DNA from: Acinetobacter sp. ANC 4173
Lineage (GTDB): Bacteria; Pseudomonadota; Gammaproteobacteria; Pseudomonadales; Moraxellaceae
Assembly (NCBI RefSeq): GCF_004331255.1
Contig: NZ_SJOF01000003.1
Span: 186,001 to 250,000 of the forward strand
DNA length: 64,000 bases
Reading direction: 5' to 3'
A program made the translations under genes and the position numbers. Shown here one piece after another: positions 50,679-63,821 of this stretch. The notes under the pieces were generated by a model. That model was given only the letters and a program-made list of their open reading frames with translations, was not told where the DNA came from and searched no databases. Within the stretch, counting starts at the first letter, position 1. The number at the start of each line of letters is the position of its first letter.

Positions 50679-52007
50679 TTAGTTTAGTTTAAGATTTCGA
50701 ACATCGATCTTCCCTGTCACCACTTGCGTGATTAAGGTTGAGCGATATTCATTTAAAAGATGAACGAGTTTTTTGCCTTTACCAATAGCGCTATTAAACT
50801 TTTCATCTTCATTTTTTAAATATTCAATTAATTGCTTTTGCTCTTCCAAGGGAGGAATAGCCAAAGTTAAATCATTATACTTTTCAGCACTTACATTCTG
50901 AATCGTAGCTTGGATATTAATGGAACTAATCCAATCCCAATATTGTTTAGATTGAAGAAAATAATTAACAAATTCAGGATTATAATTTTCTTGATCTAAC
51001 CTAGCACGAATTAGATAACCCGCATAACAGGCAATACCTATTGATTCAGCTTTGTAAAGATAACTTTTACCAACTGTTGCCCCACTTCTTGCTAGTAAAA
51101 TATCTAAGTCATCCAATAGATATTCCTCTGCTTTTTCGAACTCTAGAGATTTAAATGTTTCATCCTTCAAATTTCCAGAATCATCAATATCAGTGATTCG
51201 TATATATCGTGGATTTTCTTTATCCTCGGATTCAGCTGATTCATTTGCACCATATTTCAGCTTTTCCGATAAAAGAAATTTTAACCTTTTAATTTTCCAT
51301 TGTTGTGGAATATTACCTAAAATCTCTATACCACTTTCTTTCATCTCCACATCAGGATTTAAGCCCTTAGTCACCGCATGAGAAATTAAAGCGACTCGTT
51401 GTTCAGCTAACTTTTCCAGTAAGGTTGCTTGCTTCGTAATCAGAGAATCAACTTGGGCAAGACGTTTATCTAAAAAATCTGCAATAGCTTCTTGTTCATC
51501 AGATGGTGGCAAAGCAATTTTGATATTTCCGACAGTATCTGTATTTAAATTTAATTGTGTACCAAGTTTTCCTAGACCTAAATAAGGTTGTCCTGATGCA
51601 AAAATATAATATAAAAAATTAATGGACTCCTTCCAATCAGGAAAATAAACAAATCCATCGTGGATACAAGCTTTAACCTTAGTGATAATGGGTTTTCCTA
51701 CACTACCTGCAATACTTAAAAATATTGAATCAGGTTGCATTTTCACACTCAAAGAATTTCCTAATTCAGACAATCGCTGAGTAGTTTCTAAGAGATACTT
51801 ATCACTAGCTGTTACATCTGCTATTCGAACCCAAGCATATTCACCTTCATCATCAAAATACTCTGGATTATCAATTGGCCTAGGAGAAGCTCCGCGTTTA
51901 ACTAAAGTCAAACGCTTAATAGACAAGCATTTCCAATGGCTAGGGATTTCCCCTAACCATTGCACGCCACTATCCTTATAACTTTCGTAACGTGGTAACT
52001 GACTCAT
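50679..52007 (-). CDS. hsdS: Type I restriction specificity subunit HsdS
   Basis: 442 residues with two target-recognition domains. TRD1 is about 1-160 (YKDSGVQWLGEIPSHWKCLSIKRL), then the first conserved spacer helix (LDKRLAQVDSLITKQATLLEKL, about 185-215); TRD2 begins at SGIEILGNIPQQWKIKRLKF, and the final helix (LEEQKQLIEYLKNEDEKFNSA) ends the protein. Each TRD reads half of the bipartite target. Start overlaps the hsdM stop by 4 nt (ATGA), as usual. Target sequence cannot be predicted. Confidence 0.94.
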   Translation of the reverse strand: MSQLPRYESYKDSGVQWLGEIPSHWKCLSIKRLTLVKRGASPRPIDNPEYFDDEGEYAWVRIADVTASDKYLLETTQRLSELGNSLSVKMQPDSIFLSIAGSVGKPIITKVKACIHDGFVYFPDWKESINFLYYIFASGQPYLGLGKLGTQLNLNTDTVGNIKIALPPSDEQEAIADFLDKRLAQVDSLITKQATLLEKLAEQRVALISHAVTKGLNPDVEMKESGIEILGNIPQQWKIKRLKFLLSEKLKYGANESAESEDKENPRYIRITDIDDSGNLKDETFKSLEFEKAEEYLLDDLDILLARSGATVGKSYLYKAESIGIACYAGYLIRARLDQENYNPEFVNYFLQSKQYWDWISSINIQATIQNVSAEKYNDLTLAIPPLEEQKQLIEYLKNEDEKFNSAIGKGKKLVHLLNEYRSTLITQVVTGKIDVRNLKLN

Positions 52008-54269: not shown

Positions 54270-54863
54270 TTATTGCGCCACTTTGGCTTGCACTAAAATT
54301 TGTTCGCTCTTCGCTTGATTGTATTCGGCTCTTAAAGCTGTCAATTGTTTGAATATTAAAGCTTCATTGTGTGCTTCTTCGGCAAGTCGAAGAATCTCTT
54401 CTTGTTGAAACATAGAAGGAATAACTATTTCCGCTTCTTTTAAGGTCGAAATACTGAGCATCATCAGCAATGATCCTCGACTATTCATTTCAAAATAAGA
54501 TCGCATTGCTTGTGAATGATTAAAGTACCAAGCTAAAAATTCGGGTTTTATGTTATCAACATTCAAATTCACGACGATAAATTGATTACTTACAACAACT
54601 TGATCTGATTCATTACCTTTGAATACATAGGCTTTTGGCTCTCCACGAGCGACCACAATAATCGAGTTATATTTCAAATATTGAGGTCTTGAGTCGTAAG
54701 CCCATTCAAGTTCTGACCATTGATTTTCTGAAATAACTACTTGATCTTTGGATAAATCTTTAATTTGAATTGCTTTTACATCAAAAGTCACTGCTGGTTT
54801 CTCAAGGGGGCGTTGTGTAAACCCTGTATAAATCTCAGCAATATTTTTTAATTTAGTCTCCAT
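54270..54863 (-). CDS. Half-size HsdS-like (single TRD) protein
   Basis: 197 residues. MKTKLK-type start (METKLKNIAEIYTGFTQRPLE) and SIIVVARGEPKAYVFKGNESDQVVVSNQFIVV resemble one HsdS target-recognition domain (LKNIAEIxxG ... ISTLKEAEIVIPSMFQQEEI), followed by a single helix (LRLAEEAHNEALIFKQLTALRAEY) like a CR segment. Only one TRD and one spacer, so half of a normal S. First gene of the hsd operon, 28 bp before hsdM. It could dimerise to give an alternative specificity or modulate HsdS. AGGAAGG precedes the ATG. Confidence 0.75.
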   Translation of the reverse strand: METKLKNIAEIYTGFTQRPLEKPAVTFDVKAIQIKDLSKDQVVISENQWSELEWAYDSRPQYLKYNSIIVVARGEPKAYVFKGNESDQVVVSNQFIVVNLNVDNIKPEFLAWYFNHSQAMRSYFEMNSRGSLLMMLSISTLKEAEIVIPSMFQQEEILRLAEEAHNEALIFKQLTALRAEYNQAKSEQILVQAKVAQ

Positions 54864-54989
54864 AGTCCTTCCTTTAATAAACTTGGAGTACTTTGTTATT
54901 TTTCAGATATAATCTGTTTAACAAAGTCTCCTGTGATAGTGGATTTTGTTTTGAAAAGTTATCTGATCGCCAAATCCTAACTTTTCAAA

Positions 54990-55027
54990 TCACGCAGTAG
55001 AACTCGTACTGAGTTTTTACTGCGTGA
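54990..55027. repeat. Inverted repeat upstream of the hsd operon
   Basis: Perfect arms TCACGCAGTA (54990-54999) and TACTGCGTGA (55018-55027) with an 18-nt spacer, between the DUF262 stop and the start of the hsd operon. Possible operator or hairpin at the operon head. Confidence 0.5.
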
Positions 55028-55100
55028 GATTAATGTACGATAGAATTGAAACTTATGCAATAAAATTTTCACTTTTTAACGTACTGCAAAGTATAACGCT

Positions 55101-57044
55101 TTAATTTTCTAATTCTTCTTGATATTTTTTATAACCTATATACCCTTTTAAAGACCATCTTTTCATTGCAAATTTAATATAACGCTCTTCTTGCTCATCA
55201 ATAATTTCATTATAAAAATCAGAGTAATAATTAATAGTTTTCTTAACATCACACATAGCTTTAACAGTTTTCCGAACACTTTTTCCTGCTAGTCGTACAT
55301 GATATAAATCTGTTGGGACTTCCCGTTCAAACCCTTCAAGATATCGATCTGCTTTGATCCATACATCATCATCGTTACCTTGAATATTTAATCGGAGTTC
55401 AAGTAAAACGAAATTTCCAAGTCTTCTTTTTTGATAATAGTCGATTTCTCTACAATTCTGACCATCAAAATTTCGGTTTTGTTTTGCCCATAAGTGCTCT
55501 ATAGACAAGTAATCATTTGTTTTTCCAGATGATCTACTCTTTAAAATCTTATCTATATTAATAGTCTTATTAGGTTGTAAAGAAGACTCATAGTTCATTA
55601 AGAAGTAGCGAATCCCTCGCCACCCATAAAAATCAAATGGACTTTTATTATCTAAACGAAAAGATTCTTCAAACCATCCATCGTGTGCATGACGTTGTGT
55701 GAAATCTACAAGTAAATACTCAAGTACTTGATCATCATTTATTAGAGTAATATTGCCAATTGCTCTATTATCTTCCGAATTGTAATAATTTAATAAGTTT
55801 CCATAGTAATATTTACTTGCAAACTGATACAAATCACCTTGTCCTGTGTCTTTCCTGAATGTCATACCGTTAGCAATGTAGACTCGAAAATTTAATTTTT
55901 CCAATAATTGAAGATGACGTTCAAGAATCTCTCCTTTTCCTTTATTTTTTAGTACCAGTGCTAGGAATAAAGGCATGATTGAAGCATGGACATTTTGGGC
56001 TCTAATGTTTTCAATAAGTGGTTTTATGGTCTTGTCTAAACCGACATAATTAGGAGCATAAAGGTGTTCATACCACTTTGCAGCTAATTTTAAAAACTGA
56101 ATAAATTCTTGTAGTTTGGTTATTGTTTGATTTTTCTTTTCACTGGACTGCAAACATTGATCTATTTTTATTCTGTCCTTAAGAACATCATACCCATACT
56201 GACTATCAGTTTTATTCATTTTAAAAAATACAACTAAACAATATCTTAAAAATGAACTTTCTTCAGCTGGTGATGTTTTCTTGGCTTTATTCAATGATTG
56301 TAAAATATCAGACCAGTGTTCTGTAATTTCATCTCTTAATGACAAGGCTGAGAGCTTAATAGAACAATAGATTAAATAATTTTTTACTTTCTCTAATTCG
56401 CTGAGCTGCTTGCCTCTGTTATTAATAACTTCAAACATGATACCTGTTTCAGCGTCTTCTACAGGCGAATAAACTAAAAAACCTAATCTATCTTCTAAAA
56501 TATTTAAAATCTGCTCAGTAGCAACTCCTGAAGAAGTCTGTTGAGATAACCATTTGGTAATCAAATTATGAGCATTTAACAAGCGCTCATGTGACTCTAA
56601 TGTAATTGGACAATTTTCTAAATTAGCATCAGCCAATACTACTTTTTCAAAAAATTTCCGAGTATCCATATTTAGCTTTAATACAAATTGGTCATTTCCT
56701 ATAGTGCCTCGTATTAGATATTTGGCGGTAATGCTTTCTTTTTCCACTTTATTAGCAAATAGAGAAATACATTTAAAAAAAATAACCAACGTAGTTAATC
56801 GCTGTTGACCATCTACAATATGATATTGATTAGACTGATTTTTAATCCGTGATAAAACAAGTGTACCTGTATAGTGCCTTACGGCTGAAGTATCTAAAAG
56901 AAGATGATCAATATCTTTCAATAATTCATCAATCTGCTTTTCATCCCAAGCATATCCTCTTTGATAATCAGGGATCTGAAAAAAATTATTTGTAAAAATC
57001 TCTGATAAAGTTAAGAGCTGGGTAACGAAGTGATTTTCTGACAT
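55101..57044 (-). CDS. GmrSD-like DUF262/DUF1524 protein
   Basis: 647 residues from the ATG at 57044 (a GTG 16 codons upstream is weaker). The DUF262 ParB-like NTPase-type domain has IPDYQRGYAWDEKQIDELL (about 24) and YHIVDGQQRLTTLVIFF (about 75). A DUF1524 HNH-like domain near the C-terminus has SIEHLWAKQNRNFDG and KRRLGNFVLLELRLNIQGND. This single-chain fusion matches GmrSD, a type IV restriction enzyme cutting modified (e.g. glucosylated hydroxymethylcytosine) phage DNA. Distal to a GIY-YIG gene in the same direction. Modified-DNA specificity is inferred. Confidence 0.88.
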   Translation of the reverse strand: MSENHFVTQLLTLSEIFTNNFFQIPDYQRGYAWDEKQIDELLKDIDHLLLDTSAVRHYTGTLVLSRIKNQSNQYHIVDGQQRLTTLVIFFKCISLFANKVEKESITAKYLIRGTIGNDQFVLKLNMDTRKFFEKVVLADANLENCPITLESHERLLNAHNLITKWLSQQTSSGVATEQILNILEDRLGFLVYSPVEDAETGIMFEVINNRGKQLSELEKVKNYLIYCSIKLSALSLRDEITEHWSDILQSLNKAKKTSPAEESSFLRYCLVVFFKMNKTDSQYGYDVLKDRIKIDQCLQSSEKKNQTITKLQEFIQFLKLAAKWYEHLYAPNYVGLDKTIKPLIENIRAQNVHASIMPLFLALVLKNKGKGEILERHLQLLEKLNFRVYIANGMTFRKDTGQGDLYQFASKYYYGNLLNYYNSEDNRAIGNITLINDDQVLEYLLVDFTQRHAHDGWFEESFRLDNKSPFDFYGWRGIRYFLMNYESSLQPNKTINIDKILKSRSSGKTNDYLSIEHLWAKQNRNFDGQNCREIDYYQKRRLGNFVLLELRLNIQGNDDDVWIKADRYLEGFEREVPTDLYHVRLAGKSVRKTVKAMCDVKKTINYYSDFYNEIIDEQEERYIKFAMKRWSLKGYIGYKKYQEELEN

Positions 57045-57175
57045 TTGAAAAAGCTGGATAAAATAAGAACAATTATATTGGTTTAAGATCACTAAAAGGA
57101 AAAAATCTAATAATGTATCAATTATTTAGACATGACTTTCCAATCTAAAAGTAAAAAGATCTCTTTTCATACCAA

Positions 57176-58093
57176 CTAACGAGAATTAATTTGAATTTCC
57201 TCCCAATCCTTATAACTAATTTGAGGTTGACCTAAAAGCTTCCAAGTAGATGGTCCTGATGTTGGACGGCCAAATAACATTGCAGCAGGTGTCGAAGTAC
57301 TTGTAAAAGATACATCTTGGGTAAACTCAATTTTATCATCGATCACTCGGATCATATCTTTATCTATCAAAGATTGACGTTGATTTATTATGAAATTATG
57401 TTGAGAAGAAGTCTGCTGTTCCTTACCAATAGAACCTTGTCTCACATAAAAAACTCCATCTTTTATATAAGCTTTTCCATCTACTTTTTTATCACGGCTT
57501 AAAACAAAAAATTCTGCCTCTATTCTTTCATTTATAGTATTAGCCAATTGAGTATTTAACTGACTTGAAATTTTTACCACTGGCGTAAGTAAGTCGACTC
57601 CTAATGCAGGTAAAATAAAACTTAAATTATCTAAGAAAGTATCCATATCTGAAATATCAGCATCTGATAACTTTCCAGCATAATTTTTTATTTCTTGTTT
57701 ATTTTCAATTTTATATAGTGTTTTTTCTTTAATAAATTTATAAACCTGATATTCTAAATACGCACAATGAGTTTTAGTTAGTGTCGTATCCTTACATTGA
57801 ACTAATATGACTGTATCCCAAAAATCTTTATTGTAGTCATGATGTTGCATTCTCTGAATTCCATTGACGGTTTCTCCAACATAAACATTGTATTTACCTT
57901 CAAGCTCTTGAGACTTACTGATAAGAAAATAAATTCCAGAACCATGTGCATCTTCTTTCTCAAGCAGTTGTTTTAAACTTGCTCTCGGTGCTGCATATAC
58001 ATAGCCTGTCCAATTCATTAGCTCGGCTCTAACAATACCATTATGTTGCCCATCCACATAGAACAGACGAATTTGACGACCACGTTTTTTCAT
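57176..58093 (-). CDS. GIY-YIG nuclease-domain protein with C-terminal DUF4357
   Basis: 305 residues. The GIY-YIG-like core is GSGIYFLISKSQELEGKYNVYVGETVNGIQRMQHH (about 50-85) with the conserved Arg, followed by a Glu/Tyr region EYQVYKFIKE (about 116). The C-terminal DUF4357 is seen in STPAAMLFGRPTSGPSTWKL. Proteins of this layout occur in defence regions and are presumed DNA nucleases; the substrate is unknown. Precedes the DUF262 gene by 131 bp on the same strand; the two may form a unit. Confidence 0.85.
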   Translation of the reverse strand: MKKRGRQIRLFYVDGQHNGIVRAELMNWTGYVYAAPRASLKQLLEKEDAHGSGIYFLISKSQELEGKYNVYVGETVNGIQRMQHHDYNKDFWDTVILVQCKDTTLTKTHCAYLEYQVYKFIKEKTLYKIENKQEIKNYAGKLSDADISDMDTFLDNLSFILPALGVDLLTPVVKISSQLNTQLANTINERIEAEFFVLSRDKKVDGKAYIKDGVFYVRQGSIGKEQQTSSQHNFIINQRQSLIDKDMIRVIDDKIEFTQDVSFTSTSTPAAMLFGRPTSGPSTWKLLGQPQISYKDWEEIQINSR

Positions 58094-58195
58094 TTTTTAC
58101 CTTTAAAATCATGACAGATACAAAAACATTGAACACAAAAAATCTCTTATTTATCCAATATCAATGAATAAGATTATTGCTGATATACGGCTCTT

Positions 58196-59215
58196 TCAAA
58201 TTAAATTCCACAATAAATATCCATTTTCTTTTGCCTGACCATATGCCCAATCCGCTACCCGATGTGAACGCTGCATATCGGTTAAAAAACCTAGTTGAGA
58301 AATCTCTTGACCGATCAGTCGATCATGTAAATGATTACGTTCTAACCATTGATTCAAAAACTCTTCTGAAGCCAAATAGTTACTTTTTTGTGAATTACAT
58401 TTGTCATCTGCCAGCACAAAATTATGTCCAGTATCTGCTGGGTAAAGTGACCAGGGAATAAAGTGATCTACTGCGTATTTATTATTTTTAAGGCTTTTCC
58501 CACAGTAGAAACACTGACATTTTTGCAAGTCAATCAGAAAACTTGCAACTTGTCCCAATTGGCTACGGTTGGGAGCAAACATAAATTCATCCAAATCAGG
58601 CAGACCATCTAAGACAACAAGGTTCTGTTTATTCAGTCGAATAAAATCAATCCAACGTTTCTGGCACAGTTCTTCAATAATTTCACTGAATTGCCTTAAG
58701 CAGTACATCGCTTTTGGCAATAATTGCAGAGCTTCCTTAGAGTCACTCAAGTGGTAGAGAAATTCGAAAGTTTGCCCATTTAGATTTTGCAAATACATAA
58801 CTGGCATTTGCTTCACCGTACTTGCAACTGATTTCCTGAGTTTTAACCAAAAAACTGAATCTCTTCTTGCAACGGCGATTGTTTTGTATTGCTGCTGCGC
58901 TTTCTGAATTTCATTGATAATCTTTGCTTGCTTACCTGTACTTTGTTGAATGGTAAAAGGTTCATATTGGCTGAACTGAAATGGCAGTGACTGTTTCCAA
59001 TAAAGATCAATAAACTTTTCAGCAATATCCAAATAGTCTAGACGGAGTGTTGCACCCGTATCTTGTCCCTGTTCAATTGCAAGTCGAGTAATGCTCATTA
59101 GCAAAGCAAACTTATAGGTTGAAGTAAAAGTCCCTGACTGCAAAATTTGCTGGATATGCTTAAGGAATTTTAATTGTTCCTGAGGTGCTGGAACGGCTTC
59201 ATCACTTACAAACAT
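58196..59215 (-). CDS. HNH endonuclease with N-terminal helical domain
   Basis: 339 residues. An N-terminal domain contains YKFALLMSITRLAIEQG and AEKFIDLYWKQSLPF (about 30-80), seen in other defence-associated HNH proteins. The C-terminal HNH motif (about 235-300) is CQCFYCGKSL, VDHFIPWSLYP, then HNFVLADDKCNSQKSNYL: the two CxxC pairs and DH-x-x-P are intact. A Zn-stabilised DNA nuclease. Its start lies 3 bp after the methyltransferase stop, so the two are a coupled unit. Confidence 0.87.
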   Translation of the reverse strand: MFVSDEAVPAPQEQLKFLKHIQQILQSGTFTSTYKFALLMSITRLAIEQGQDTGATLRLDYLDIAEKFIDLYWKQSLPFQFSQYEPFTIQQSTGKQAKIINEIQKAQQQYKTIAVARRDSVFWLKLRKSVASTVKQMPVMYLQNLNGQTFEFLYHLSDSKEALQLLPKAMYCLRQFSEIIEELCQKRWIDFIRLNKQNLVVLDGLPDLDEFMFAPNRSQLGQVASFLIDLQKCQCFYCGKSLKNNKYAVDHFIPWSLYPADTGHNFVLADDKCNSQKSNYLASEEFLNQWLERNHLHDRLIGQEISQLGFLTDMQRSHRVADWAYGQAKENGYLLWNLI

Positions 59216-59218
59216 TAT

Positions 59219-59809
59219 TTACGCCTTTTGCTTTTTGAAAAGAATGTTCAGCCACTCTTCTGTTCGATCAGAGCGTTTATCTAAGGTAATCCACTGCTGT
59301 AAAATTAGTACCTGATCAAAGTCTTTTAACAGATCATCTACCTGCTTTTCATTTAAGTCAGTAAAGCTACGCCCATCTTTTTCACGATCTTGATTGCCAT
59401 ATTTAAAAGACATATAGCACACACCATTTGGCTTTAGTGCCGTTAAAATCCTGTCCAATACATCTGATAACTTCTCCCTCTCACAATGCAACAAAGAAGC
59501 ACATGCCCAAATACCCCCATATTTTTCCTGTGCAGATAATTCATAAAAACTATCTAACCGCACTGGTAGTCCTGTAAGCTGACGTGCTTTTGCAACCAAC
59601 TCTTCTGAATAATCAATGGCTTCTACCTGATGACCCAAATTTTTAAAAGCCAGCGTATCTCGACCCGAGCCACAACCCAGGTCAAGAATAGAAGCATGTT
59701 CAGGTAGGTATCTTAAAAATGATTGGTACAAACTGGTCATGTCCACTTGATAAGTAGTATCAAAGAACTGATCAGCATTTTGATTGTAGTAATATATATT
59801 TTTATTCAT
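59219..59809 (-). CDS. Class I SAM-dependent methyltransferase in the defence island
   Basis: 196 residues. Motif I ASILDLGCGSGRDTLAFKNLG (about 37-57), acidic residue after beta-2 in VEAIDYSEEL, then GIWACASLLHCEREKLSDVL and CYMSFKYG. It lacks the NPPY/DPPY motif of DNA adenine methyltransferases and resembles TehB-like small methyltransferases, so the substrate may be a nucleotide or small molecule. Directly upstream of the HNH nuclease gene, 3 bp gap. Confidence 0.85.
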   Translation of the reverse strand: MNKNIYYYNQNADQFFDTTYQVDMTSLYQSFLRYLPEHASILDLGCGSGRDTLAFKNLGHQVEAIDYSEELVAKARQLTGLPVRLDSFYELSAQEKYGGIWACASLLHCEREKLSDVLDRILTALKPNGVCYMSFKYGNQDREKDGRSFTDLNEKQVDDLLKDFDQVLILQQWITLDKRSDRTEEWLNILFKKQKA

Positions 59810-59940
59810 AATCTTCTAATAAACAGACTTGGTGTTCACTTTAAGTGAGTAATATAAGCATAGAATGGTAGCTACACACTGAGCTTGCAACAAATTTAAT
59901 TAAAAATTAAAATAAGACAAATAGTTAAAGGCTAAAAAAG

Positions 59941-60147
59941 ATGGCTTTTTGTCCCTTATGTAATGATGAACTCGATAATGAATACCTCAACTCTGTCATG
60001 GATGAACTTTCTCGGCATAAAGACTCACCTTTTTATTCTATAATTAAGCAATGTCTTCATTGTAAACATGATTTACTTTTTAAAAAAATTGCACTCAGTT
60101 ATTACCTAGTTACTAATAACAAAGAAATTCTTATTGGTGGTGCATAA
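59941..60147 (+). CDS. Small zinc-ribbon-like protein
   Basis: 68 residues with two CxxC pairs, FCPLC near the N-terminus and KQCLHCKHDLL (about 37-47), suggesting a zinc ribbon. The rest is helical (SVMDELSRHKDSPFYSII). It stands divergent from the methyltransferase gene and ends at a terminator. No strong ribosome-binding site. Could be an accessory or regulatory protein of the island; function unknown. Confidence 0.55.
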   Translation: MAFCPLCNDELDNEYLNSVMDELSRHKDSPFYSIIKQCLHCKHDLLFKKIALSYYLVTNNKEILIGGA

Positions 60148-60166
60148 AAAATTGGGTCAGAAATAA

Positions 60167-60190
60167 GGGAGCTAAAGCTCCCATTTTTAT
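60167..60190. terminator. Terminator between the zinc-ribbon and AlpA genes
   Basis: GGGAGCT-AA-AGCTCCC hairpin followed by ATTTTTATT, after the stop at 60147. Confidence 0.8.
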
Positions 60191-60417
60191 TCACGACTTT
60201 GTATTTTTTCTTCAATCCATTGATGAACTTCCAAAGCCACCCAACCAATACGTGATTCACTTAAGCGTATTGGTTTTGGAAAGCTTGGATCATAGTACTT
60301 TGAATCAACATTAATCATTTCGTAGATCTTTGCCCGACTAATACTTGTGAATTGAATGACTTCTTTAATATTGATAATTTGATTCATCTGAAAAGTCTGA
60401 CCTGTGAACGCATTCAT
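60187..60417 (-). CDS. AlpA-family phage/island regulator
   Basis: 76 residues from the ATG at 60417, with AGGAG 8 nt upstream. MerR-like winged helix: IINIKEVIQFTSISRAKIYEMI, PSFPKPIRLSESRIGWVALEVHQWIEEK matches the AlpA/Vis signature. Such proteins activate the integrase or act as excisionases. It could control excision of this island together with the integrase at 44234. Confidence 0.9.
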   Translation of the reverse strand: MNAFTGQTFQMNQIINIKEVIQFTSISRAKIYEMINVDSKYYDPSFPKPIRLSESRIGWVALEVHQWIEEKIQSRE

Positions 60418-60513
60418 GATGTTTACTCCTGATCATTGATGCGAGCGCGTATTCGCTCAGATCATAGGGCAGTCCAATAAAATTTTACGGAGTCCCATGT
60501 TATCTAGATTTAT

Positions 60514-61446
60514 CTAATTCACCGACCTCACACTCCCCTGTAAATCTTGCTGAATATCCTGCACAAACCCCTTACTCTGAGTGAATTTGGTCTTCGTCTT
60601 GGCTTTTGATTCAAGTGGAGAATGCTCAGACTCAGCATTCTCATCCACATAAAACTCTTCCACGAAATCTAGTCCCTCCTCAGCATTCACCTCAAACCGT
60701 GCATTGCCATACCCCTGCCGTGCCATTTGATCTAAAGCAGCCTGATTAAAACCACATAACTTAGTTTTTTGGTCAATCTCTTTCGCAGTTTGAATCGCTT
60801 CTTGTACATGAACACCTTCACGTAAAGTCAAATCCACGTAGTACACAGGCGTGCGATAGCTTTGAGTTGTGGACTTTCCTCTAAGCGTGAGTTGTAGCGG
60901 TAAACACGAAAGCAAGCCATTAGATGCTGCATGGTAATAACTGAGTCTCGCAGCCAAAGTACGGATACTATTAAAGCCTGTGGTTCTAAAGATGAATGTC
61001 CCAAGTTCATCCGATTCATCTAAATTGACATGCAAACGCCCATAAGGTTTACAGTTACCTCCTTGTGCCAATGGACACAAATCAGGGGATGGGCATGGAT
61101 GTTGTTCTACCCCTTGATTAGTCAGTCGTTGGCAGGTTTCTCCATTCCCAACACATACAGGCCTACCCGTTTGACGGTCAAATAAACTGTATTCCGCCCG
61201 TAGATTCAGTTCAGGATCATTGAATATCATGCGGACTGGAATACTTCTGAGTTTTTGATTCGGTGCTTTCGCTCGAAGTTGTTCATCCAATGGATGTTTC
61301 ACCCAACCACTATCCTTGTTTTGGATTTGGCTGGTAATGGTGAATTGGTCATCCTTTTCAGGGATGCGTTTCCCGTTCTTTTCGACAACCTTGCCGATAC
61401 TGATCCGCCCAAGAATTGGCGGTGTAATAGCTAAACCTTTAATCAT
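60514..61446 (-). CDS. Conserved mobile-element protein with a Cys cluster (RDF/Gp3-like?)
   Basis: 310 residues. N-terminal MIKGLAITPPILGRISIGKVVEKNGKRIPEKDDQFT and a Cys-rich cluster (about 95-130: CVGNGETCQRL, HPCPSPDLCPLAQGGNCKPYG) that could bind metal. The C-terminus is Ser/Lys-rich. Proteins of this family sit beside YqaJ and DUF932 genes in integrative elements and are often annotated as hydrolase or metal-binding proteins; similarity to Gp3-like recombination directionality factors is my recollection and unproven. First of three co-directional genes here from the right. Confidence 0.6.
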   Translation of the reverse strand: MIKGLAITPPILGRISIGKVVEKNGKRIPEKDDQFTITSQIQNKDSGWVKHPLDEQLRAKAPNQKLRSIPVRMIFNDPELNLRAEYSLFDRQTGRPVCVGNGETCQRLTNQGVEQHPCPSPDLCPLAQGGNCKPYGRLHVNLDESDELGTFIFRTTGFNSIRTLAARLSYYHAASNGLLSCLPLQLTLRGKSTTQSYRTPVYYVDLTLREGVHVQEAIQTAKEIDQKTKLCGFNQAALDQMARQGYGNARFEVNAEEGLDFVEEFYVDENAESEHSPLESKAKTKTKFTQSKGFVQDIQQDLQGSVRSVN

Positions 61447-61511
61447 GGTATTTTCCTCTTCTACTTAAATGTGTAGATATGCTTGGTTAAAAATGAAATC
61501 GGCATAAAAAA

Positions 61512-61533
61512 TCCCATGCTCTCAGGCATGGGA
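61512..61533 (-). terminator. Terminator after the YqaJ gene
   Basis: TCCCATGC-CTGAGA-GCATGGGA (minus strand) followed by T6. Confidence 0.82.
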
Positions 61534-61587
61534 CATTTAGATTAGTTTGGTATTTTGCTAGCGAAGTACACTTAGGCTAAATCTGTT

Positions 61588-62631
61588 TCAATCAGCATCG
61601 GTATAGATGTTGAATCGCCGTGTGCCCTGCTTGCTTTGTGAAAATTGATTAAGATACTCAGGGTGTAACTTGAGTAAAGCCTTGCTATCTAAGCTGATTG
61701 AATCCTTAGACTTTTTCCATGTCACTGAGCCTACTTTAAAGGTGGCACGTTCAGCCCCCTGCATCTTGGCTTGAAGTTGATGCTTCAGTAGATCGAACTG
61801 CTCCTGATGTTTTTCAATTTGGTTACGGGTCTGAATGAGTTGCTCAAACTGTTGATTGGCTTGCTCATCCTCAGATAGATCCGTGGTGCTGAGCGGTACA
61901 TGTTCAGGATAGAGTAGCTGTAAGGCTTTGGCTGCGGATTCACTGGCATCGGCTTCAGGTGGGATATCCTTTTCAACACACTCCCAGAAGTAACGCTCCG
62001 CATTGATGATGTGTTGAATCACCGATTCTGAACGTGTGACTTTAAAAATTCTTGTTTCATGTCCACAAATTAAGACACAGATATGTGCTGCCTTTTTGCC
62101 TGTGACTGCCAGTTGGTGTTGCACCTGACACAACACGTATAACGGCACACCATCTCGCCACAACTTGGCCCCATATTCTCCAGCAGTTTTACACTCCAGT
62201 ATTTGTACATCAGCATCCCCAACCACCGAATAATCCAAGTTGGCCAACATAAAATGCTTGTCTGGATCAGGATGTTGTAATACGGCATTGACTCGACGCA
62301 CTTTATAGTTGGTATACATGCTGTAGTATTCAGCAACCAAAGGTTCCAGTTGCTTGCCCCAGTACAAGGGTGCATGGCCTTCACTTTCATCTTCAATGTT
62401 TTGTTGAATCCGTCCTGTCTTGATCATCCATAGTTCAAGCATCGATATATAAGGATTGAGGCCACAAGCTGCGGCACAGTCACTACTACCAATACCTTGA
62501 CGACGAACTTCCAGCCATTCCGCCTGACTTAGGTTTTTGGTCTCTACAAAGCGTTTTGGATGGCTGAGTTTAGGGCGATGCGCATGGATATTTGCTCGAG
62601 TAGGATGATGTTGAATTAAAGCTGAGTTCAT
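61588..62631 (-). CDS. YqaJ-type viral recombinase (lambda exonuclease-like)
   Basis: 347 residues. The N-terminal WLEVRRQGIGSSDCAAACGLNPYISMLELW is the YqaJ/exo hallmark (the GIGSSD region), with nuclease residues in VGDADVQILECKTAGEYGAKLW (Asp, Glu-x-Lys at about 140-150). This 5'-3' exonuclease would supply single strands for homologous recombination. The C-terminus is a long Gln-rich coiled coil (NQQFEQLIQTRNQIEKHQEQ). Its terminator follows, and the DUF932 gene lies upstream. Confidence 0.9.
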   Translation of the reverse strand: MNSALIQHHPTRANIHAHRPKLSHPKRFVETKNLSQAEWLEVRRQGIGSSDCAAACGLNPYISMLELWMIKTGRIQQNIEDESEGHAPLYWGKQLEPLVAEYYSMYTNYKVRRVNAVLQHPDPDKHFMLANLDYSVVGDADVQILECKTAGEYGAKLWRDGVPLYVLCQVQHQLAVTGKKAAHICVLICGHETRIFKVTRSESVIQHIINAERYFWECVEKDIPPEADASESAAKALQLLYPEHVPLSTTDLSEDEQANQQFEQLIQTRNQIEKHQEQFDLLKHQLQAKMQGAERATFKVGSVTWKKSKDSISLDSKALLKLHPEYLNQFSQSKQGTRRFNIYTDAD

Positions 62632-62671
62632 AAAGCTGTCCTCTGATTATTAAATTTTAGGCATAAAAAAA

Positions 62672-62691
62672 GCCACATCTGGAGATGTGGC
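62672..62691 (-). terminator. Terminator after the DUF932 gene
   Basis: GCCACATCT-CC-AGATGTGGC (minus strand) followed by T7. Confidence 0.85.
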
Positions 62692-62774
62692 AAAGAGGTA
62701 TTTGGATTCAAAGAGATTTACAGGATCATGTTGATCTGATGTGATTATCTTAAATTCTGAATCTGAATCTAAAC

Positions 62775-63821
62775 TTAAACAATCAAGCGTAATGCTTGTT
62801 CCAGTCCACGTTGTTTTAAACCTGCTCCAGCACCGAACCATGCTGAATCTAAGCGATGATCCTGACTCATCGCTCGACGTTCATGATCACAAAATTCCGT
62901 AATGGAACACAGTAAGCCATAAGCCGTGTCTTTGGCTGAACTGAGTTCTGCCCCACGACCATGGCCATTAAACATGGTCATGACTTTAGACATGGCACGT
63001 CCATTCGGTTCAGACTTATTGTCAGCTTTATTGGATTGGCTTCCTTGCGCTGGCACATTGCGATAAAACTGAATAATACTGTCATCTTGCTCGGTTGGAC
63101 TGAGGCTGGTGTTATTAAACACCGCATCAAAATAAGCTGCAGCTTCAGTCTGTGTAACTTTACGTTGACTGAGCTGTTTCATTTCATACATGTGTTCGTT
63201 CCATGCCCGCACTGAAATCCCCAATTGCTGTTTGATCTTCTGCGCATCAAACTTAGTACTGTGTGGCACTTTAACTACGCCTGCACTTGCATTCTGACCT
63301 TTTAAGGCAATGGCTAAAGTGTTGTTACACACCACGCGAATCGAGGTAAATTGCGCCGTGGTCGCTAAGGTGCCATCACATCCAGTGGCTAAGAGAATAT
63401 AGCCATTGCTGACATCTTTACCCTTTAAAGCAGAAGTTTGCCCAGTTTTGGCTAAAGCCCAGAATTTCTTGCCACCTTTCAGTACTCCTGCGGTTTCCAG
63501 TTCAAAGCCAGATTGTTCAGTCAAGTCTCGATAGAATTCTAGAATCTCTCGGGGTTGGACTTCCTGATAACGCTGACTGACTACCGATAAAGGTGCATGT
63601 GTGTCGGAACGGTATAAAACCCGCTGTTCATCATGCGGTAGGATCAAGCTTTGTCCTTTGTGATTTTCAGCCATGTAACTCACATTCGAGCTTTCAATCT
63701 GCCAGTCCATGCCCGCCTGCTTGGCCCAGACCTCAATCGGTTGATTGGGTGTCAGTTGATTACCCAAACCATGCCAAGGGGTTTGACCGACATAAGCCAT
63801 GTTTTCGATTTGATGTGCCAT
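62775..63821 (-). CDS. DUF932 phage/plasmid-like protein
   Basis: 348 residues. MAHQIENMAYVGQTPWHGLGNQLT is the family start, followed by a GKKFWALAKTG block and VVCNNTLAIAL. DUF932 (TIGR03299-like) proteins are common on plasmids and integrative elements; their function is unknown, though an involvement in recombination or element maintenance is often supposed. Divides into its own unit, with terminator before YqaJ. Confidence 0.85.
   Translation of the reverse strand: MAHQIENMAYVGQTPWHGLGNQLTPNQPIEVWAKQAGMDWQIESSNVSYMAENHKGQSLILPHDEQRVLYRSDTHAPLSVVSQRYQEVQPREILEFYRDLTEQSGFELETAGVLKGGKKFWALAKTGQTSALKGKDVSNGYILLATGCDGTLATTAQFTSIRVVCNNTLAIALKGQNASAGVVKVPHSTKFDAQKIKQQLGISVRAWNEHMYEMKQLSQRKVTQTEAAAYFDAVFNNTSLSPTEQDDSIIQFYRNVPAQGSQSNKADNKSEPNGRAMSKVMTMFNGHGRGAELSSAKDTAYGLLCSITEFCDHERRAMSQDHRLDSAWFGAGAGLKQRGLEQALRLIV

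Follow-up and report, generated by a model that had tools for sequence, protein, structure and literature searches.

A Coupled Methyltransferase-HNH Gene Pair in Acinetobacter

The window analyzed here, a stretch of 64,000 nucleotides from contig NZ_SJOF01000003.1 of Acinetobacter sp. ANC 4173, contains a pair of adjacent genes that encode a class I S-adenosylmethionine (SAM)-dependent methyltransferase and a protein with a predicted HNH nuclease domain. A first-pass annotation had described the two genes as coupled, 3 bp apart on one strand, and both open reading frames (ORFs) are indeed found in this arrangement. The pair has the following features:

59219..59809, minus strand: class I SAM-dependent methyltransferase, 196 aa, ATG start, first gene of the pair (ORF list; Pfam, PADLOC)
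59657..59689, minus strand: predicted SAM-binding motif I, ILDLGCGSGRD, methyltransferase residues 41-51 (motif type in 70 of the 72 family ORFs of at least 150 aa)
59222..59229, minus strand: AAAAGGCG, putative ribosome-binding site of the HNH gene (role suggested by position)
58196..59215, minus strand: HNH endonuclease protein, 339 aa, ATG start, second gene of the pair (ORF list; Pfam HNH_4/HNH; AlphaFold2)
58571..59194, minus strand: N-terminal domain of the HNH protein, residues 8-215, mostly helical (Pfam scan, model)
58370..58513, minus strand: Cas9/IscB-like HNH nuclease domain, residues 235-282 (Pfam HNH_4, 6.8e-08; HNH, 1.9e-05)

The 3 bp lie between the methyltransferase stop codon and the HNH start codon, and the AAAAGGCG element ends 6 bases ahead of the latter, within the 3' end of the methyltransferase gene. 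The host genome carries a single copy. In six Acinetobacter comparisons per gene, the nonsynonymous divergence (dN) is 0.11-0.26 whereas the synonymous divergence (dS) has reached saturation with a single exception (1.9), which indicates that both genes are subject to purifying selection.

Conservation of the HNH Protein and Exchange of Its Partners

Relatives of the HNH protein (hereafter family A) were collected from plasmids (20 records), genome contigs (best 80 of 459 relatives), viral contigs (3) and genome samples; distant members are under-sampled because only the best 80 of the 459 genome relatives were kept. All loci were fetched with HNH queries, and the same organism is sometimes represented in several collections. 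Among the 153 ORF hits, 12 are partial; the remaining 141 full-length ORFs form 77 clusters at 88% identity. The first-pass annotation had proposed a CxxC/DH active site, and both motifs are present among the key residues of the HNH domain: C235 and C238 (CxxC), D250 and H251 (DH), N265, C273, N274 and K277. D250, H251 and N274 are invariant in 142 aligned members, C235, C238, C273 and K277 are present in 141 and N265 in 140. The N-terminal part contains the invariant K35, A37, Y72, W188 and R217, along with P138 (140 of 142 members) and a near-invariant Q143.

The family was detected in 32 of 199 host-family genomes, where the matches with weak E values are probably generic HNH only, in 2 of 369 class-sample genomes, the host being one of the two, and in 9 of 300, 7 of 294 and 13 of 150 genomes around three other hosts, the central host counted each time. 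The notion of a phage-borne gene was dismissed given that none of the 50,697 phage records searched yielded a match to the HNH protein at a threshold of E 1e-5; the three relatives in viral contigs are those noted above.

The gene adjoining the HNH gene, that is, located within 400 bp of it, is most often one of two kinds. Among the 77 clusters, a HIT gene is the partner in 31 and the methyltransferase gene in 26, and single clusters have a MazG-like or a NUDIX protein instead; 15 have none and 3 stop at a contig end. The numbers for the 141 ORFs are 37 (HIT), 71 (methyltransferase), 1 (MazG-like) and 3 (NUDIX), with 26 lacking a partner and 3 at a contig end, so that the partner is absent in 15 of 74 evaluable clusters and 26 of 138 evaluable ORFs. 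HIT and methyltransferase genes are never found together beside the HNH gene (0 of 77 clusters). A cluster was considered paired if any member is paired, and the majority label yields identical totals; in the three mixed clusters, L053, L066 and L074, and L018 and L089, respectively, are without the partner that the other members have. The 15 partner-less clusters include two with a displaced or broken methyltransferase, namely L055, where it lies 440 bp away beyond a GIY-YIG-like ORF, and L120, where it is disrupted. The HIT profile was built from 12 pattern-picked ORFs of the same loci, and the single-sequence MazG and NUDIX searches may miss members. With such recurrence, the HNH-methyltransferase adjacency is not a matter of chance. 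In two Ignatzschineria genomes (L092 and L106), the methyltransferase and the HNH protein are fused into a single ORF.

The partner gene mostly comes first: 48 of the 59 partnered clusters, 31 with HIT and 17 with the methyltransferase, have it upstream of the HNH gene in the same orientation, usually with an overlap or almost without a gap. In Psychrobacter the partner follows the HNH gene, and in Wohlfahrtiimonas and Agitococcus the two genes are on opposite strands. On one quick tree of the HNH proteins (no bootstrap, two long branches), whose clusters are phylogenetically non-independent, at least three changes between HIT and methyltransferase can be traced, suggesting that the partner was exchanged more than once. 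The methyltransferase is associated with the gammaproteobacterial clades around the window, with a Pseudoalteromonas-type clade and with L113. When the surroundings of 70 de-replicated HNH ORFs were surveyed to a distance of 3 kb, the only genes present in more than three loci were those for the methyltransferase (25), HIT (18) and three Acinetobacter element proteins (6 each).

Several loci carry apparent decay forms of the pair. In L013:1498-2166, the start of the methyltransferase is merged into a truncated HNH protein; L029:1399-2321 combines a long methyltransferase ORF with a truncated HNH gene; in L120/L201, the methyltransferase is broken and the HNH ORF is intact. Relatives of the HIT protein also occur in other settings, for example in Jeotgalibacillus (L189) and next to TIR-domain genes (by annotation); at the Paraburkholderia locus L188, which encodes a close HIT relative, no gene of the HNH family was found.

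A Methyltransferase without DNA-Methylase Motifs

The methyltransferase matches Pfam Methyltransf_25 (5.3e-14) and TehB (5.6e-08). Its nearest solved structure is 3e23, RPA2492 (5.5e-29, profile A2), itself an uncharacterized protein, and among the PADLOC models it agrees best with mad2, over the C-terminal part (1.7e-15, model positions 285-427 of 492). Motif I of this fold binds SAM. The [DNS]PP[YFW] motif of DNA methylases, reported missing in the first-pass annotation, is indeed absent from the window protein and from all 72 family ORFs (near-copies counted), and none of these contains the PCQ/ENV motif pair of 5-methylcytosine (m5C) methyltransferases. Furthermore, a protein of 196 aa would leave little space for a target-recognition domain. 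The lack of DNA-methylase motifs is compatible with a small-molecule substrate.

In L005, L046, L048 and L079, the methyltransferase ORF runs on into a second domain. The one in L048:8779-9978 is a GIY-YIG domain (Pfam GIY_YIG_2, 4.1e-35); in L055:8808-9980 and L199:3969-5173, a GIY-YIG domain is fused to the methyltransferase or follows it (by eye). GIY-YIG can thus be added to the modules of this set. A search of 321 genomes with the methyltransferase profile yielded 11 loci, and only the window's own has an adjoining family A HNH gene. A gene coding for a phospholipase D (PLD)-helicase protein overlaps the methyltransferase gene in L160 and is located near it in L158, L163 contains a distant HNH-like gene, and the remaining loci have another partner or none that is clear.

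The N-Terminal Domain of the HNH Protein

The N-terminal part of the HNH protein, about 220 residues long, is matched by no Pfam, NCBIfam, PADLOC or PHROGs model. A Pfam scan of this domain in 38 members gave nothing for the window protein and a best stray E value of 0.0051 in one member; the best PDB hit of the domain profile is a designed helical protein (E 0.0071). The AlphaFold2 model of the full protein has a predicted local distance difference test (pLDDT) score of 92.9, and the N-terminal domain modeled alone has 86.7. The C-terminal part of the model matches the HNH domain of Nme1Cas9 (Z 8.5, root mean square deviation (rmsd) 3.4, 99 residues). The full model also matches ScoMcrA (5zmm_D; Z 6.1, rmsd 3.6, 110 residues), under the trust level of the tool; this protein appeared only with the full model, and neither Foldseek nor VIA recovered a credible structural match for the N-terminal domain alone.

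When the profile of the N-terminal domain was compared by hhalign with five sulfur-binding domain (SBD) sequences, the conserved P138xxxLQ stretch aligned with YPFWRLQ over 11 columns, with an E value of 0.056 and a probability of 0.97 (scale 0-100). The score of 17.07 compares with a maximum of 15.82 in 60 column shuffles and with 12.10 for the reversed profile. This resemblance to DNA sulfur-binding domains can be considered a lead at the level of sequence profiles. An alignment made by eye, in which Y34-K35 and P78 were placed on H116-R117 and Y164-P165 of ScoMcrA, was not borne out by hhalign, which placed the match elsewhere.

A Divergent HNH Family and Links to Modification-Dependent Nucleases

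The N-terminus of a second HNH family (family B), which surrounds a TYKFA or SYKFA stretch, resembles that of family A but has diverged from it, and this family is associated with the same set of partners. Ten plasmid records match this family, and in the eight neighborhoods that were read, the partner is the methyltransferase in two (Roseomonas L153 and Acinetobacter NCu2D-2 L210), HIT in two (Hymenobacter L190 and Persicobacter L191) and, by annotation, a nucleoside triphosphate pyrophosphohydrolase in two (Rhodococcus L183, in divergent orientation, and Lysinibacillus L211, where the HNH gene is broken). None of the four partners is present in Exiguobacterium L208 and Nostoc L209. In viral contigs, the methyltransferase gene directly follows the family B gene in all four cases, of which L197 and L198 are near-copies; in these two, the HNH-methyltransferase pair is a few genes away from a S-adenosylmethionine synthetase-like gene (by eye). 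The Hymenobacter plasmid locus L190 encodes a BPTD_3080-type restriction endonuclease, the HNH-HIT pair, and a (deoxy)nucleoside triphosphate pyrophosphohydrolase beside a DEAD/DEAH helicase, and such pairs thus cluster in one locus.

Genes of the methyltransferase family also overlap PLD-helicase genes, in Aeromonas L154 and in L160/L168. In 10 loci retrieved with a PLD-helicase query, a methyltransferase-like ORF overlaps upstream in two (L168 and, by eye, L169), and none was recognized in eight. The HNH protein of L121:9989-11530 contains a C-terminal S24-peptidase-like domain that matches the PLD-helicases of L168 (4.9e-44) and L169 (5.9e-52); the six others of the eight PLD-helicase-type proteins compared lack this domain. 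In Psychrobacter L088, genes for an HNH protein, a NUDIX protein and a PLD-helicase-DUF3427 protein are located in a row. The models nearest to this NUDIX protein belong to the Nudix/pyrimidine-nucleotide diphosphatase/MutT group (PRK08999, 2.1e-26, and PRK10546, 6e-24, both under the cut-off), and these MutT-like matches fit a partner that would defuse nucleotides. PLD-helicase-DUF3427 is the architecture of SauUSI, described in PMC3874153 as a type IV enzyme dependent on m5C or 5-hydroxymethylcytosine, and MutT homologs beside SauUSI homologs are mentioned in a figure legend of PMC7641849. Finally, in L185:229-1589, a HIT gene overlaps by 4 bp a gene whose product passes the cut-off of NF045808, the SBD-HNH family of phosphorothioate-dependent restriction endonucleases (275 versus 180 bits). 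Five plasmid loci annotated with NF045808 have no adjoining HIT gene listed in the plasmid gene tables, which are incomplete, and L185 is the single such case among the loci read.

Genomic Neighborhood

The genes around the pair are as follows:

60187-63821, minus strand: AlpA-like gene (by eye), RDF-like protein, YqaJ exonuclease and DUF932 protein, upstream of the pair
57176..58093, minus strand: PADLOC PDC-S14 candidate with DUF4357 and a weak GIY-YIG match, next gene downstream, outside the pair
55101..57092, minus strand: GmrSD-type (GmrSD_N) protein, defense neighbor outside the pair (Pfam, 1.7e-35)
54270..54863, minus strand: half-size HsdS, 197 aa (Methylase_S, 1.9e-07; PADLOC mad5 match)

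Together with the HsdM, HsdS and HsdR genes of a type I restriction-modification (R-M) operon recognized by eye further downstream, the three downstream genes listed support the earlier placement of the pair in a defense island. The half-size HsdS gene is located just upstream of this operon, which contains a full-size HsdS gene at 50679-52007 (by eye), and possibly represents a spare specificity half. The upstream genes appear to be the backbone of an integrative element, with a cargo side that varies among Acinetobacter genomes: the RDF-like gene accompanies the pair in 7 of 10 representative Acinetobacter loci, and the genes on the other side differ from locus to locus (type I R-M, BREX, type I-Fv CRISPR and others; HsdM in 3 and HsdR in 3 of the 10). 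The variable cargo beside element genes suggests that the defense island is, in part, the cargo zone of an integrative element. In 38 other representative loci (2 of them viral contigs), a PLD-helicase was found in 4, GmrSD, BrxC and PDC-S14 in one each and type I R-M in none, counts that, without a random-locus control, do not establish enrichment in defense islands outside Acinetobacter. The PLD-helicase count was lowered from 5 because the match in L121 is the S24-like domain of the HNH protein itself.

In L061:11081-12016, a PDC-S14 candidate followed by a GmrSD-type gene is again found directly downstream of a 70%-identical HNH gene (by eye). Divergent from the methyltransferase gene of the window is a 68-aa ORF (59941-60147, plus strand) with two CxxC pairs that looks zinc-ribbon-like by eye; in the plasmid locus L031, its place is occupied by a DUF4236 gene.

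Possible Function of the Pair

HIT, NUDIX and MazG-type proteins are known mostly as nucleotide hydrolases. The exchange of such enzymes and the methyltransferase beside two nuclease families is the best clue to function and, combined with the lack of DNA-methylase motifs, favors a restriction nuclease with a nucleotide-defusing accessory enzyme. Under this reading, which is the preferred one and is held tentatively, at a little less than an even chance, a type IV-like nuclease would be accompanied by an exchangeable small-molecule or nucleotide enzyme that keeps the target of the nuclease out of host DNA. The HNH protein would cut DNA as a stand-alone enzyme, with a reader or sensor domain of its own at the N-terminus; it would be directed at modified or otherwise abnormal DNA and presumably act against phages. 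The methyltransferase would have an accessory role with a small molecule, probably a nucleotide, as its substrate, in a slot shared with HIT proteins and with MazG-like and NUDIX pyrophosphohydrolases. Such a partner might remove or cap unusual nucleotides, either made by the invader or released when invader DNA is cut, which would then be kept from entering host DNA and turning it into a target.

The coupling, fusion and exchange of the genes, the conserved catalytic residues, the purifying selection and the lack of a DNA-methylase motif are shown, whereas DNA cleavage, dependence on modification, a nucleotide substrate and an anti-phage role are inferred. Several points weigh against this reading. 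The N-terminal domain has no significant fold or sequence match of its own, so that a role in reading modified DNA is assumed by analogy, with a single weak profile match in its favor. The common substrate class is a guess since three of the exchanged partners are expected to be hydrolases and one is a methyltransferase. A strict self-protection role is weakened by the 15 partner-less clusters, where the partner is apparently dispensable. The methyltransferase family occurs beyond HNH and PLD-helicase neighbors, and outside Acinetobacter some HNH genes, partnered or not, are found by eye among seemingly metabolic genes (e.g., L034, L057-L059 and L081-L084). In Exiguobacterium L208, two annotated DNA methyltransferase genes are located about 370 bp from the family B HNH gene in divergent orientation, so that an R-M-like use of this family is possible there.

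If the preferred reading holds, it would reveal a repeated design in bacterial restriction, with a partner that keeps the trigger out of the host genome rather than marking the genome, and with partner enzymes freely exchanged in that protective role. It would account for the presence of small nucleotide hydrolases and unusual methyltransferases next to certain modification-dependent nucleases, and it would provide testable substrates for several uncharacterized enzymes in Acinetobacter, Burkholderiales, Gemmatimonadota and Planctomycetota. A broader claim, which is conceivable and rather doubtful, is that such pairs form a class of modular restriction systems that has so far gone undescribed: a reader-HNH protein of at least two families would be combined with an interchangeable metabolite enzyme (methyltransferase, HIT, MazG-like or NUDIX) that defuses unusual nucleotides, and self would be distinguished from non-self at the nucleotide pool rather than on host DNA. 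Hint-type proteins desulfurize nucleoside phosphorothioates, and in its boldest form the claim invokes a shared sulfur chemistry: the N-terminal domain might be a divergent relative of phosphorothioate readers, the HIT partner might carry out such a desulfurization, and the TehB-like methyltransferase might methylate a thiol or a related nucleophile.

Among the alternatives, the partner could be an off-switch: a nucleotide signal or metabolite would activate the HNH protein during infection and be removed or altered by the partner. The partners other than the methyltransferase are indeed expected to act on nucleotides, and the PADLOC authors hypothesized that ThsC, a HIT protein of Thoeris II, is an off-switch of this kind (PMC8565338). 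However, no signal-making gene recurs in the 3-kb surroundings of the 70 de-replicated HNH ORFs, and no fold could credibly be matched to the isolated N-terminal domain, which makes this scenario unlikely, if a serious contender.

The HNH protein could also be a toxin that is neutralized by the upstream partner, for instance through modification of the toxin protein itself, its target or a nucleotide. In toxin-antitoxin operons the antitoxin gene usually comes first, and the prevalent arrangement of the partnered clusters (48 of 59) is of this kind. Nevertheless, the 15 HNH clusters without a partner make a strict antitoxin, as well as classical R-M, unlikely; the downstream partner in Psychrobacter and the opposite strand in Wohlfahrtiimonas and Agitococcus do not fit such an operon either, and four unrelated enzymes serving as antitoxins to one toxin would be unusual. 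A toxin-antitoxin system thus seems improbable.

The first-pass annotation had offered two explanations for the methyltransferase, namely that it modifies something else that the HNH nuclease senses or that the pair is an unusual R-M system. In the first case, the methyltransferase would place a mark on foreign DNA or its ends, or make a product there, that is recognized by the HNH protein. The fusions in L092 and L106 suggest joint action, but a methyl mark is not what one would expect from the HIT, MazG-like and NUDIX proteins that take the same position, the exchange with hydrolases is left unexplained, and the methyltransferase family lacks a DNA-methylase motif; this explanation appears quite improbable. 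In the second case, the methyltransferase would modify host DNA and shield it from the HNH nuclease. The tight operon and the fusions join a methyltransferase to an endonuclease, it is conceivable that some small methyltransferases of unknown type have DNA as their substrate, and the DNA methyltransferase genes of L208 point the same way. Against this, none of the 72 family ORFs contains either type of DNA-methylase motif and the matches are to small-molecule enzymes such as TehB; HIT, NUDIX or MazG-like proteins take the place of the methyltransferase in 33 clusters; and in L120/L201 the HNH ORF is intact beside a broken methyltransferase gene. The clusters without any partner within 400 bp imply that host protection of the usual R-M kind is not what the methyltransferase provides. 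The view that the pair is not an ordinary R-M system is therefore upheld, with the added point that the partners swapped for the methyltransferase are not expected to methylate DNA; an R-M system of any kind, including the unusual one, is very doubtful.

Finally, an incidental association in mobile elements, suggested by the RDF-like gene of one integrative-element type in 7 of 10 representative Acinetobacter loci, is hardly credible given the adjacency of the genes in several bacterial classes and viral contigs, the fusion, and the replacement of the methyltransferase by HIT genes that take the same position and overlap their neighbor.

Comparison with Known Systems

No PADLOC or NCBIfam system is recognized at the system level in the pair. 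The literature searched, with few subscription papers within reach, yielded no published account of this pairing, in line with the suggestion of the first-pass annotation that the system is poorly described. RNA-guided nucleases were considered and rejected: the NCBIfam models of Cas9, Cas9d and IscB match around the HNH stretch only, far below the cut-off. The HNH domain is similar to those of Cas9 and IscB in sequence and predicted fold, and it is the only part that the 339-aa window protein has in common with them. Likewise, the similarity to PtuB of Septu (PADLOC PtuB, 2.3e-06) and to retron HNH effectors is generic and limited to the HNH domain; no PtuA-type ATPase is encoded beside the window HNH gene (by eye). 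The methyltransferase resembles the C-terminal part of Mad2 of the MADS system; the N-terminal part of Mad2 is absent. Of the mad1-8 set, only mad2 (the methyltransferase) and mad5 (the half-size HsdS) are matched by the eight window proteins encoded at 54270-63821, among the matches listed (at most 25 families per protein).

The closest parallels are found among modification-dependent nucleases. The SauUSI-type PLD-helicases have the same types of partners, MutT/NUDIX in L088 and the methyltransferase family in L154 and L160, and the S24-like C-terminal domain is common to the HNH protein of L121 and the PLD-helicases of L168 and L169. The window HNH protein differs in that it lacks PLD, helicase and DUF3427 domains, matching only HNH models at E <=1; the L168 protein itself differs from SauUSI in that its C-terminus is S24-like and not DUF3427. 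SBD-HNH proteins (NF045808; ScoMcrA/SprMcrA/EcoWI) resemble the window protein in architecture, with an N-terminal reader and a C-terminal HNH domain in about 300-340 aa, and their member in L185 has an overlapping HIT gene, as does the HNH family described here. The nuclease domain, however, is HNH_2 in L185 and HNH_4 in the window, and NF045808 has no match at E 10 in the window HNH protein and none in the host genome. The weak profile match of P138xxxLQ to YPFWRLQ is a further resemblance, and sulfur binding by the N-terminal domain of the window protein would be a conjecture. By these family tests, the pair falls in no named system, and under the preferred reading it would be a type IV-like restriction system with an exchangeable accessory enzyme.

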